Assembly (NCBI GenBank): GCA_036271555.1
Contig: DATBAK010000044.1
Location: 1-44,855, forward strand
DNA length: 44,855 nucleotides
Source: Acidimicrobiia bacterium
GTDB lineage: Bacteria > Actinomycetota > Acidimicrobiia > IMCC26256 > PALSA-610
Direction: 5' to 3'
Below are positions 19,714-43,622 of the stretch, in pieces. Below the pieces are notes generated by a model. That model was not told the DNA's origin and did not search any database. It was given only the letters and a program-made list of their open reading frames with translations. The position numbers and the translations under genes are program-made. Every line of letters begins with the position of its first letter. Within the stretch, counting starts at the first letter, position 1.

Positions 19714-20658
19714 ATGCGCAGGACGGCCGCCAGCGTCGGGCGGATGCTGGTGACGGTTGGGGTGCTGATCCTGCTGTTCGTGGCGTACCAGCTCTGGGGC
19801 ACGGGCTACTTCACCCAGCGGGCGCAGCGCGACCTGCGCCACCAGTTCGAGCAGGAGCTGAACGACAACCCGACCGTCGGCAGCAGCACGACGAGCGCAC
19901 CCCCGTCGACGACGGGCGTCGCGCCCACGACGACCGCACCGGCCACGACCGCTGCGAAGGTCGTGCAGGTGCTCCAGGAGGGCGGGCCGGCCGCCCGGAT
20001 CCGGATCCCGAAGATCGGCGTCAACGACATCGTCGTGCAGGGCACCGCACGTGACGACCTCGCGAAGGGTCCCGGCCACTACCCCGCGACGCCGTTGCCG
20101 GGCCAGATCGGAAACGTCGCGATCGCGGGCCACCGCACGACCCACTCGAAGCCCTTCTACAACCTGAACGAGCTGGTGCCCGGCGACGACATCATCATCG
20201 ACACCCTCGGCTACGGCACGTACACGTACCGCATGTACGAGCAGCTGATCGTGCCGCCGAGCGACGTGAGCGTGGTCGCGCCCACGAGCGACGCCGAGCT
20301 CACGCTGACGACCTGCAACCCGCGCTACTCCGCGCGCCAGCGCCTGGTGGTGAAGGCGCGGCTCGTCGTCAACCGCAGCGCGCCCGCGCGCGTGTCGGTG
20401 CCCGTGAAGGTCGTCTCGCCGGTGCGGAGCTCGGGCGACAAGAAGACGTCGCTCGCCGACAGCCTCTCGGGCGACATCTCGTCGCGCACGCCGACGTTCA
20501 TCTGGGGAACGCTCACGGTGCTGCTCGGGCTGCTGTGGTGGTGGCTCTATCGCCGCTTCCGCCACCCGCTCACGTGGCTCGGTGGCGTGCTGCCGTTCCT
20601 CGTGGTGCTGATCGCGTTCTACGTGTACCTCGAACGGCTCCTGCCCGCGAACTTCTAG
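19714..20658 (+). CDS. Class E sortase
   Basis: A 314-residue membrane-anchored transpeptidase of the actinobacterial class E sortases, which attach surface proteins to cell-wall peptides. One N-terminal helix (residues 11-30), a Thr/Pro-rich linker (55-85) and the sortase barrel (90-225) with catalytic His140 (AGHRTT), Cys201 (TLTTCNP) and Arg in ARQR. Two further transmembrane helices at the C-terminus (about 260-312) are an extra. The ATG at 19714 with a -10 box 7 nt upstream is preferred over one at 19627. No obvious substrate gene is adjacent. Confidence 0.93.
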   Translation: MRRTAASVGRMLVTVGVLILLFVAYQLWGTGYFTQRAQRDLRHQFEQELNDNPTVGSSTTSAPPSTTGVAPTTTAPATTAAKVVQVLQEGGPAARIRIPKIGVNDIVVQGTARDDLAKGPGHYPATPLPGQIGNVAIAGHRTTHSKPFYNLNELVPGDDIIIDTLGYGTYTYRMYEQLIVPPSDVSVVAPTSDAELTLTTCNPRYSARQRLVVKARLVVNRSAPARVSVPVKVVSPVRSSGDKKTSLADSLSGDISSRTPTFIWGTLTVLLGLLWWWLYRRFRHPLTWLGGVLPFLVVLIAFYVYLERLLPANF

Positions 20659-20662
20659 TGGC

Positions 20663-20887
20663 GGAGCAGGCGCGCGGTCGGCAACGAACCGCGGAGTCGC
20701 TCCGTGCCGGGACGAGCGAGAATGCGACCATGCGGTCGGAGCAGGCGCGCGGTCGGCAACGAACTGCGGAGTCGCTCCGTGCCGGGACGAGCAAGCATGC
20801 GACCATGCGGTCGGAGCAGGCGCGCGGTCGGCAACGAACCGCGGAGTCGCTCCGTGCCGGGACGAGCAAGCATGCGACCATGCGGTC
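20663..20887 (+). repeat. Three tandem 75-bp repeats filling the gap before the threonine dehydratase gene
   Basis: Units run 20663-20737, 20738-20812 and 20813-20887. Units 2 and 3 differ at one base, and units 1 and 3 at two. The array ends at the base before the GTG start of the next gene and begins 4 nt after the sortase stop. The 75-bp period is 25 codons, so frames stay open across units. Each unit holds the hairpin CGCGGT/ACCGCG and ends GACCATGCGGTC, which sits where a leaderless -10 (GACCAT, 6 nt before GTG) would be. Promoter triplication is one reading. Confidence 0.9.
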
Positions 20888-21820
20888 GTGATCGCGTTCG
20901 AGGACGTCGAGATCGCGCAGCGCCGGCTGGCACCGTTCGTTCACCGAACGCCGGTGATGACGTCGCACTCGCTCGACGAGTGGCTCGACACGAACGCGTT
21001 CCTGAAGTGCGAGCATCTGCAGCGTTGCGGCGCGTTCAAGTACCGCGGCGCGACGAACGCAGTGCAGTCGCTGGCTCCCAACGTCGCGGCGCGCGGCGTC
21101 GCCGCACACTCGTCCGGCAACCACGGCGCCGCGCTCGCGCTCGCGGCCCGCACGCGCGGCATCCCCGCGCACATCGTCGTGCCGCGCACCGCGACGCGCA
21201 CCAAGCGCGACGCGATCGCGGCCTACGGCGCGCACGTCGTGCTGTGCGAACCGACGCTCGCGGCGCGCGAAGCGGGTGTCGCCGCCGTGATCGCGGAGAC
21301 GGGCGCGGTCGAGATCCATCCGTTCGACCACGACGACGTGATCGCGGGCGCGGGCACCGCCGCACTCGAGCTCGTCGACGACGTGCCGGGCCTCGACATC
21401 GTGATCGCACCGGTCGGCGGCGGCGGTCTGCTGTCGGGCACCGCGATCGCGGCCCATGGACGCCGCCCCGAGCTGCGCGTGATCGGCGCGGAGCCGGCTG
21501 CGGCCGACGACGCGGCGCGTTCGCTGCAAGGCGGCGCGATCGTGCCGCCCGACCCGCCCGCGACGATCGCCGACGGGCTGCTCACGGGGCTCTCGGCACG
21601 GACGTTCGCGGTGCTGTCGGAGCACGTCGAGACGATCGTCACCGTGAGCGAGGCCGAGATCGTCGCCGCGATGGACGTCGTCTGGCAGCGCACGAAGCAG
21701 CTCATCGAGCCGAGCGCGGCGGTCGCGGTCGCGGCGGTGCGGGAGGGCGACTACGCGGGTGCGCGCGTCGGCATCATCCTCAGCGGCGGCAACGCCGATC
21801 TCGCACTCGCGGCAGGTTGA
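20888..21820 (+). CDS. Threonine dehydratase/serine racemase-like PLP enzyme
   Basis: A 310-residue fold-type II PLP enzyme. The PLP lysine is Lys51 in FKYRGA, with SSGNHG as the phosphate-side loop, the glycine-rich GGGGLLSG, and SGGN near the C-terminus. There is no ACT regulatory domain, as in catabolic threonine ammonia-lyases and serine racemases. The likely reaction is deamination of threonine or serine to 2-oxoacids; racemase or hydroxyaspartate lyase activity is possible. The GTG start directly abuts the tandem repeat array and has no Shine-Dalgarno. Confidence 0.87.
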   Translation: MIAFEDVEIAQRRLAPFVHRTPVMTSHSLDEWLDTNAFLKCEHLQRCGAFKYRGATNAVQSLAPNVAARGVAAHSSGNHGAALALAARTRGIPAHIVVPRTATRTKRDAIAAYGAHVVLCEPTLAAREAGVAAVIAETGAVEIHPFDHDDVIAGAGTAALELVDDVPGLDIVIAPVGGGGLLSGTAIAAHGRRPELRVIGAEPAAADDAARSLQGGAIVPPDPPATIADGLLTGLSARTFAVLSEHVETIVTVSEAEIVAAMDVVWQRTKQLIEPSAAVAVAAVREGDYAGARVGIILSGGNADLALAAG

Positions 21821-25841: not shown

Positions 25842-26678
25842 GTGTCGTTCCTCGGGCTCGTGGTGCTCGTCGCGGCGATCGTCCCCCTCGTCACCGGCGG
25901 CAGCTACCGCCGGCTTGCCGACGCGCCCTGGCGCGGGGGCGGACTGCTCGCGCTCGGCCTCGGCCTCCAACTGCTCCTCGACACCGGCCTCGTCCCGAAG
26001 TCGGCGTGGCACAGCGTCGGCTTCGGCATCCTCGTCGCGTCGTACGTCGTGCTCGTCGGCTTCTGCGGGGGCAACATGCTCGTGCGGGGCATGGCCGTCG
26101 TGCTCATCGGCGTCGCGCTGAACGGCTTCGTCATCACGATCGACCAGGGCATGCCGGTGAAGATCCCGCCGGACTGGCAGACGTCGAGCCCGGTCGGCGC
26201 GACCGTGAAGCACCATCCGCGCGCAGCGGGCGACCACCTGCTCGCGCTCACCGACGTCATCGTGCTGCGCAAGCTCGACGCGGTGATCTCCTTCGGCGAC
26301 CTCATCATCGCCTTCGGCCTCATCGACGTGACGTACTGGGCGAGCCGGCGCACCCGGCGGGCGCGCACCGGTACACCACTCGCCGAGAAGCACGCCGACG
26401 CGACCCCGGTCGTGCGCGAGGTGCTCGAGCTCCCGGCCCTCCCGACACCGACACCGACACCGACACCGACATCGCCGACACCGACACCCGCACCGGCACC
26501 GGCGCGGCGACCCGATCGGACGCGACCGCCGCGCCCCGTGCGCGTCCGTCAGCCCGCGCGTGTGCCGGCCGAATCGGCTGCGCCTCCCGAACCGGAATCG
26601 GAGCCGGCCACCCGCTCAGGCGCGGGCGGCTCGATGTCGGCGATCAAGGAGGCGCTCGAGCGCCTCGAGCGCCCGTAG
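25842..26678 (+). CDS. DUF5317-like membrane protein with Pro/Thr-rich tail
   Basis: A 278-residue protein. Residues 1-175 hold about five transmembrane helices and the DUF5317 hallmarks: TGGSYRRLADAPWRG near the start, NGFVITIDQGMPV, a KHH stretch and a final ISFGDLIIAFGL. The tail from about residue 195 is cytoplasmic or external low complexity: TPTPTPTP and PAPAPA repeats, then Arg/Pro-rich sequence. The GTG at 25842 is preferred; AAAGAT lies 6 nt upstream as a weak leaderless -10. Function of the family is unknown. It ends convergently, overlapping the next gene by 63 nt. Confidence 0.75.
   Translation: MSFLGLVVLVAAIVPLVTGGSYRRLADAPWRGGGLLALGLGLQLLLDTGLVPKSAWHSVGFGILVASYVVLVGFCGGNMLVRGMAVVLIGVALNGFVITIDQGMPVKIPPDWQTSSPVGATVKHHPRAAGDHLLALTDVIVLRKLDAVISFGDLIIAFGLIDVTYWASRRTRRARTGTPLAEKHADATPVVREVLELPALPTPTPTPTPTSPTPTPAPAPARRPDRTRPPRPVRVRQPARVPAESAAPPEPESEPATRSGAGGSMSAIKEALERLERP
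26444..26510 (+). repeat. CCGACA/CCGGCA short tandem repeat inside the DUF5317 gene
   Basis: Hexamer repeats of ACACCG with minor changes encode the TPTPTP and PAPAPA segment. The six-base unit keeps frame, so copy changes would only alter tail length. Confidence 0.75.
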
Positions 26679-42386: not shown

Positions 42387-43622
42387 GTGTCGGACTCGAT
42401 GCTCGGCGGCATCACCGTGCTCGACCTCGCGACCGTCGGTCCTGCGGCGCGCACCTCGCGCTGGCTCGCCGACTACGGCGCGCGCGTCGTGAAGATCGGC
42501 GCGCCACCCGCCCAGCACGGCGTGCAGATCACGCCTCCGTTCTATGCGTACGCGGGACATCGCGGCATGCAACGCGCGCTGCTCGACCTCAAGACGCCGG
42601 CGGGTGTCGACGCGTTCCTGCGGCTCGCGGCGAACGCCGACGTCGTGATCGAGAGCTTCCGCCCCGGCGTGATGGATCGACTCGGCATCGGCTACGACGC
42701 CGTGAAGACCGTGAGCCCGCGTGTCGTCTACTGCTCGACCACCGGCTACGGGCAGGACGGGCCGCACGCGCAGTGGGCCGGTCACGACCTCAACTACCTC
42801 GGTATGGGCGGCTACCTCGACTGCACCGGTCGCGATCCGAGCGGTGGTCCCGCGCTGCCCGGCGCGACGATCGGCGACGGCGCGGGCGGCGGCATGCACG
42901 CGGTGATCGCGATCCTCGCCGCGCTCGTTCAGCGCGCCGCGACCGGTGAGGGCGCGTACCTCGATGTCGCGGTCGCCGACGGAGTGGTCGCGCTGATGTC
43001 GCTCGCGATCGACGAGTACCTCGCGACCGGCGAGGTGCCGGGCCCGCGACACGGGCTGCTCACCGGTCGCTTCGCGTGTTACGACGTCTACGAGTGCCGC
43101 GACGGACGCTGGCTGACGGTCGCCGCGATCGAGCCGCGGTTCTGGGCGAACCTCTGCCGCGCGCTCGGTTGCGAGCAGTGGAGCGCGCACCAGACCGACG
43201 ACGATGCGCAAGACACGATCCGCGCCGACCTGCGCGCCGCGTTCGCGCAGCGCGATCGCGACGAGTGGGTGAAGGCGCTCGGACCGGCCGACACGTGCGT
43301 CGCGCCCGTCTCGTCGATTCCCGAGGTCGCAACCGATCCGCACCTGACCGCGCGCCACGTCTTCGTCGACGCCGAGCGGGTGAGCGGTCAGCCGGACCAC
43401 GAGACAGAGCTCCGTGCCGACCGGAGTGAGGACGCGACCGTGCGATCGCGCGACGACGGCGACTCGTTGCGGCAGGTCGGCTGGGTGCTCGCGGGCATGG
43501 ACCGCGGACAACAGTCGGTCGTGCGCGAGCCGACGGTGAGCGATACCGACGCGCTGCTCGTCGACGCCGGACTCGACGCCGCGACCGTCGCACAACTTCG
43601 CAGCGAAGGAGTGATCGCGTGA
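42387..43622 (+). CDS. CaiB/BaiF (family III) CoA-transferase, second copy
   Basis: A 411-residue family III CoA-transferase: GGITVLDLATVGPAARTSRWLADYGARVVKIG, RGMQRALLDLKTPAGVD, ADVVIESFRPGVMDRLGIGYD, CSTTGYGQDGPHAQWAGHDLNYL and GEGAYLDVAVADGVVALM. It is only distantly similar to the copy at 39863; its AGHDLNYLGMGGYL resembles the alpha-methylacyl-CoA racemase subgroup, so racemase activity is possible. GTG at 42387, 6 nt after the dehydrogenase; ATG at 42399 is an alternative start. Confidence 0.92.
   Translation: MSDSMLGGITVLDLATVGPAARTSRWLADYGARVVKIGAPPAQHGVQITPPFYAYAGHRGMQRALLDLKTPAGVDAFLRLAANADVVIESFRPGVMDRLGIGYDAVKTVSPRVVYCSTTGYGQDGPHAQWAGHDLNYLGMGGYLDCTGRDPSGGPALPGATIGDGAGGGMHAVIAILAALVQRAATGEGAYLDVAVADGVVALMSLAIDEYLATGEVPGPRHGLLTGRFACYDVYECRDGRWLTVAAIEPRFWANLCRALGCEQWSAHQTDDDAQDTIRADLRAAFAQRDRDEWVKALGPADTCVAPVSSIPEVATDPHLTARHVFVDAERVSGQPDHETELRADRSEDATVRSRDDGDSLRQVGWVLAGMDRGQQSVVREPTVSDTDALLVDAGLDAATVAQLRSEGVIA

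Follow-up and report, generated by a model that had tools for sequence, protein, structure and literature searches.

The three 75-bp tandem units between a class E sortase gene and a gene of the PALP family in the window (the whole 44,855-nt stretch of DNA analysed, contig DATBAK010000044.1 of an Acidimicrobiia bacterium) are probably copies, arranged head to tail, of an interspersed repeat that is small, non-autonomous, and lineage-specific. The element was dispersed in the genome, sat at gene junctions or in frame within genes at sites that relatives leave empty, and was tandemly multiplied both here and in other arrays.

Results

Structure of the sortase-PALP junction

Tandem Repeats Finder, run on the whole window, reported an array at 20662-20888 with 3.0 copies, 97% matches, no indels, and a period of 75 bp, which confirmed the period of 25 codons proposed in a sequence-only reading of this DNA. 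This array was by far the strongest of the window, with a score of 433; the runner-up array scored 72. Units 1, 2, and 3 (20663-20737, 20738-20812, and 20813-20887) showed three differences between 1 and 2, two between 1 and 3, and one between 2 and 3, so the earlier estimate of one or two differences held for the last two pairs but not for units 1 and 2. The near identity of the units supported the proposal that the array was recently amplified or has been kept homogenised. Every 75-bp unit ended in GACCATGCGGTC, and the third GACCATGCGGTC directly abutted GTG 20888, the PALP start, which bore out the claim that the array ends exactly at a start codon; this start region was supported by the proteins of relatives, which aligned from the same region as GTG 20888. 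The sortase TAG lay at 20656-20658, and the 225-bp array plus 4 nt made up the entire gap between the two genes, as had been read from the sequence. Elsewhere in the window, the same program reported 9.5 tandem copies of the 6-bp unit CCGACA at 26442-26501.

The coordinates of the features are collected in Table 1. The best NCBIfam model for the PALP gene was BhcB, with 384 bits, under its cut-off of 550. The ORF spanning the array overlapped both neighbours, with its GTG on the sortase TAG (TAGTG) and its TGA on the PALP start (GTGA), and gain or loss of one whole 75-bp unit keeps its frame. Its codon-usage score was -0.14 per codon, compared with 0.26-0.40 for five genes of the window, and thus did not point to selection at the protein level. 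By eye, a purine-rich Shine-Dalgarno sequence was not evident just 5' of the PALP start or within the short gaps that several relatives have at this junction; at the PALP start, this lack would suit termination-reinitiation. Neither a sigma-70-type promoter nor a terminator was found at 20500-21000, and the dinucleotide TA was absent from the array units, which excludes a TAnnnT -10 box within any unit.

Table 1. Positions of the repeat copies and of the genes and ORFs around them in the window
Feature	Position	Strand	Evidence
Class E sortase gene, start approximate (ORF from 19627)	19717..20658	+	Pfam Sortase E, 7.8e-36; NCBIfam NF033747 class_E_sortase, 176.5 bits over cut-off 160
77-codon ORF spanning the whole array	20658..20891	+	Translation VAEQARGRQRTAESLRAGTSENATMRS...
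Element copy 1 (71 nt), then linker CGGT to 20736	20662..20732	+	R1 63.5 bits, E 1.0e-16
Element copy 2 (71 nt), then linker CGGT to 20811	20737..20807	+	R1 66.1 bits, E 1.7e-17
Element copy 3 (71 nt), terminal ATG 20880-20882, then CGGTC and the GTG start	20812..20882	+	R1 65.7 bits, E 2.2e-17
PALP-family (serine/threonine dehydratase-like) gene, start GTG	20888..21820	+	Pfam PALP, E 2e-73
CaiB/BaiF-like CoA-transferase ORF, 411 aa, host of the 43372-43442 copy	42387..43622	+	NCBIfam CoA-transferase models all below cut-off, best E 2e-48
Element copy in frame within the CoA-transferase gene	43372..43442	+	R1 44.4 bits, E 9.4e-11 for 43374-43442

A dispersed family of the same element

The window's own genome, a 4.68-Mb draft of 104 contigs and the only genome of its genus included, was searched with R1, a sequence-only model of the element. 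A search of this genome with the unit itself also yielded many further copies. R1 gave 55 matches at E <= 3.3e-5; with one further match at 4.3e-4, 56 copies were examined, which became 48 rows when arrays were collapsed and 47 places when one contig-end array that had been counted twice was corrected for. The search for the single unit elsewhere in the genome, which had been suggested as a check, therefore found it about 50 times, including once more in the window itself at 43372-43442. In an alignment of 25 copies, most matched end to end and consisted of a left arm, CGGAGCnGGyGmGCGGTCAGC, approximately 18 variable bases, and a right arm, CCGTGCCGnGnnGAGCrAGCATGCGACCrTG, with both arms strongly conserved in primary sequence. 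The conserved element was approximately 71 nt, or 72-75 nt where the insertion was measurable. Its length ranged from 68 to 73 nt across copies, so no frame was conserved family-wide; this variation, a stop in the best-anchored frame in 4 of the 25 copies, and the codon usage of the array ORF, which was not gene-like, led to rejection of a coding function across the family.

No conserved RNA fold was found in the family (consensus, -2.7 kcal/mol), and conserved RNA structure was rejected, as a hairpin can be formed by the window unit alone and is not kept by the family. Among four copies tested, the window unit had a 17-nt imperfect inverted repeat, which was not terminal at the right end, and the other three had neither inverted repeats nor terminal inverted repeats. 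A match to the Rfam sRNA AS1726 (29.4 bits against a cut-off of 50) was judged to be due to chance; AS1726 also matched elsewhere in the same genome, in no case over the cut-off. The Y1 (RAYT-type) transposase domain PF01797 was absent from this genome and was detected by the control in E. coli and others, and a RAYT/REP system was rejected on this ground. No transposase or other mover for the element was identified.

Further tandem copies were found on other contigs: two-unit arrays at 75-bp spacing on C33 and C57, and arrays of four and three copies at 74-75-bp spacing within which C103 and C39 start (G000:C103:14-303 and G000:C39:1-205; L094 and L095), perhaps opposite ends of a single assembly-breaking array. 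The C33 array was antisense to its neighbouring genes; therefore, an open frame cannot explain tandem copies in general.

Placement and ends of the copies

With genes called by a home-made codon-usage caller, 35 of the 48 rows lay between two called genes, nine overlapped a called ORF, and four lay at contig ends. The 35 intergenic rows comprised 21 in sense orientation and six in antisense orientation between co-directional genes (p 0.006), eight in divergent gaps, and none in convergent gaps; among element-free adjacent pairs, 16 of 109 were convergent (p about 0.004). An intact GACCrTG end was present in 33 copies, of which 11 had A as the next base and seven had TGA next. The terminal rTG opened a coding-like ORF in 11 of these 33 copies, nine of them intergenic. 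These ends fit insertion at stop/start overlaps, but chance alone would place one in three in frame. Target-site duplication was weakly suggested, as 33 and 20 of 1,000 shuffles reached the observed values at 27 non-tandem places; an earlier test had appeared significant owing to the repeated flanks of tandem copies.

Sites that are empty in relatives

Three copies lay in frame inside genes. The best-scoring copy of all was carried by an FMO-like gene, in which exactly 25 codons (75 nt) were absent from all five close orthologues aligned (11 non-own loci fetched), and the 24 codons (72 nt) contributed by the copy in the CaiB-like CoA-transferase gene were absent from all nine homologues aligned (11 fetched). 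The third lay in a reprolysin-like metallopeptidase gene (L010, G000:C70:19676-19745), for which no homologue was found in 60 relatives. A single frame was used by the three intragenic copies (EPVSGQRRTTPKSRAETSEHAT, ERVSGQPDHETELRADRSEDAT, and EQASGQRRTTQPRRAEPSEHAT), and the array ORF (EQARGRQRTAESLRAGTSKHAT) was in this same frame.

Junctions between genes were compared in the same way. For the sortase-PALP pair, among 29 loci examined besides that of the window, 19 had no upstream sortase, a paralogue in the window's own genome being one of these; in the remaining 10, all syntenic and from the same family, the gap was -4, 7, 7, 12, 13, 13, 13, 26, 33, and 100 nt, compared with 229 nt here. 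The sdhA-sdhB gap, which holds one copy, was 91 nt here, whereas 27 relatives had values from -1 to 76 nt. The ftsY-ffh gap, with a weak copy, was set aside as non-discriminating, since it was 78 nt here and 3 to 188 nt in most relatives.

In the 60 relatives searched with R1, 13 of the same family and none of the same genus, no match was better than 1.1e-4 and none was convincing. In a survey of the class, in which approximately 12 first-look candidates per genome were scored in 395 genomes, 1e-5 was reached in the window's own genome and in none of the 394 others. The exact right-arm pattern gave no exact match in genome_contigs, from which the window's own genome may itself be missing. It was likewise absent from viral_contigs, and a phage origin was rejected. 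Because none of the 60 relatives belonged to the same genus, gain of the element along this lineage would be placed at genus depth.

Discussion

The sequence-only reading had proposed that the array may be a promoter or leader multiplied ahead of the PALP gene, its copy number changing expression. Such a role would suit an array that directly precedes the PALP start, and in M. tuberculosis the length of a MIRU-VNTR upstream of fpg1 is described as correlated with fpg1 mRNA (PMC2734929), and promoter activity is reported for the senX3-regX3 region with its MIRUs (PMC4213456). However, the unit was generic to 47 places, antisense and intragenic ones included, the sortase-PALP pair was almost gapless in relatives, and the region 20500-21000 contained no promoter-like site, nor the units any TA; the proposal was not upheld, and we consider it distinctly unlikely. 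It is also unlikely that the element is a functional site, either a protein-binding site or an RNA leader, which was selected at gene starts and amplified here rather than being mobile. Although the strong conservation of both arms, the absence of copies from convergent gaps, and the coding-like ORFs opened by the terminal rTG, mostly in intergenic copies, agree with a site of this kind, two genes carried internal copies at positions that relatives leave empty, some copies were antisense, the family had no conserved RNA fold, and the element was absent from all relatives searched even though the genes it flanks are conserved.

The 77-codon ORF that overlaps both neighbours, and the shared frame of the intragenic copies, could be taken to point to a genuine gene for a small repeat protein, which is very improbable given that the codons of this ORF were not gene-like and that the varying element lengths and the stops in 4 of 25 copies left no family-wide frame. 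An assembly artefact at this locus is hardly probable at all: the units differed at fixed positions, the array ran without a break into the genes on either side, and solo copies occurred throughout the genome. The draft does consist of 104 contigs, and as two of them start within an array of this family, the number of units could be misjudged.

The array is therefore best explained as tandem copies of a dispersed repeat. Several points counted against this explanation: no mover was identified, three of four copies tested had no inverted repeat, target-site duplication was weakly suggested, gain would be placed at genus depth, the ftsY-ffh site did not discriminate, six of the 27 co-directional copies were antisense, and translation of the array ORF was a prediction. 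The element would spread as a mobile (selfish) sequence by means of a putative helper, and would persist where harm is small, that is, at gene junctions and in-frame positions; once settled, it could be multiplied by slippage or unequal crossing-over. As the array ORF is open from the sortase stop to the PALP start, ribosomes leaving the sortase gene could translate through it and then reinitiate at the PALP gene. With an array ORF lacking gene-like codons and no promoter- or terminator-like site, the simplest view is that of a tolerated selfish insertion which leaves coupling possible. The main role of the array for the cell is probably none beyond tolerated spacing, and PALP expression might be modestly affected.

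More tentatively, the family may represent a new type of tiny mobile element that is non-palindromic and without terminal inverted repeats, and that is moved by a putative machinery. Such an element would insert at stop/start junctions, where the ATG or GTG at its end would serve as, or restore, the start codon of the following gene, and would form a harmless in-frame linker of 24-25 residues inside genes, while its tandem copies would act as a frame-preserving, variable-number spacer tuning translational coupling. It would then parallel both MIRU and RPE, independently of either.

Comparison with known repeat systems

MIRU-type repeats are used for fingerprinting tuberculosis strains. In the published descriptions, MIRUs are tandem repeats of 40-100 bp at gene junctions, with 41 loci in M. 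tuberculosis H37Rv (PMC2734929), and the element was similarly a short unit at gene junctions, with 47 places and 35 intergenic rows. The senX3-regX3 junction of H37Rv is described as holding three 77-bp MIRU units (PMC4213456), comparable to the three 75-bp units here, and one class I MIRU is described as making up an entire 77-nt 5' UTR (PMC4128351). The orthologous junctions are nearly empty in relatives in both cases; the rnc-fpg1 gap is given as 358 bp in M. tuberculosis and 1-54 bp in mycobacteria outside the complex (PMC2734929), and the sortase-PALP gap behaved likewise. A MIRU was available for direct comparison in L087 (JAHREJ010000087.1, 1-3327), labelled Bacillus subtilis SK7B5, in which a SenX3-like kinase (410 aa) is followed by 77-bp MIRU units; this contig appears to be a contaminant of the B. 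subtilis draft from the M. tuberculosis complex. In L087, the MIRU begins at the stop codon of senX3 and contains a small ORF, a layout similar to that of the window array. The small MIRU ORF was reportedly noted by Supply et al. in 1997 to overlap the neighbouring stop and start codons. An ORF overlapping the codons of both neighbours was present at the window array, with a frame that was not conserved across copies of the element. Whereas the 77-bp period of MIRU restarts the ORF in each unit, the 75-bp period here keeps one ORF open. Homology to MIRU was unsupported in the only MIRU compared, the 77-bp senX3-regX3 unit of L087: R1 gave no significant match to it, and Smith-Waterman scores were not above those of shuffles (459 and 124 of 500 reached the score).

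In-frame coding repeats are taken as a feature above all of Rickettsia. The in-frame insertions in the FMO-like and CaiB-like genes, lacking in five of five and nine of nine homologues, respectively, resembled RPEs, which are described as palindromic repeats of 100-150 bp lying in frame inside unrelated genes, with a peptide absent from orthologues (PMC10969869, PMC3767692). In contrast to RPEs as described there, the element was approximately 71 nt, was non-palindromic in three of four copies, had no conserved fold, and formed tandem arrays, and it would belong to a different phylum. The enterobacterial RU-1/ERIC, RU-2, and RU-3, compared by description only, are presented as small, MITE-like, mobile intergenic elements that have open frames and are sometimes intragenic (PMC2759123); this habit is like that of the element, but at 103-168 bp they are longer.

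No report of MIRU-like elements outside mycobacteria was found in the open-licence literature; MIRUs of the senX3-regX3 type are described as restricted to the M. tuberculosis complex and M. leprae (PMC4213456), and a 2024 review describes in-frame coding repeats outside Rickettsia as conceivable (PMC10969869). Here, MIRU-like and RPE-like behaviour were combined in one unrelated genome, with the empty sites measured. The element thus offers a system for asking how such repeats move and whether array length alters coupling, as well as a ready typing marker for its lineage. We read it as working like both MIRU and RPE and belonging to neither, since it lacks a tested defining feature of each, namely the sequence of MIRU and the palindrome of RPE.
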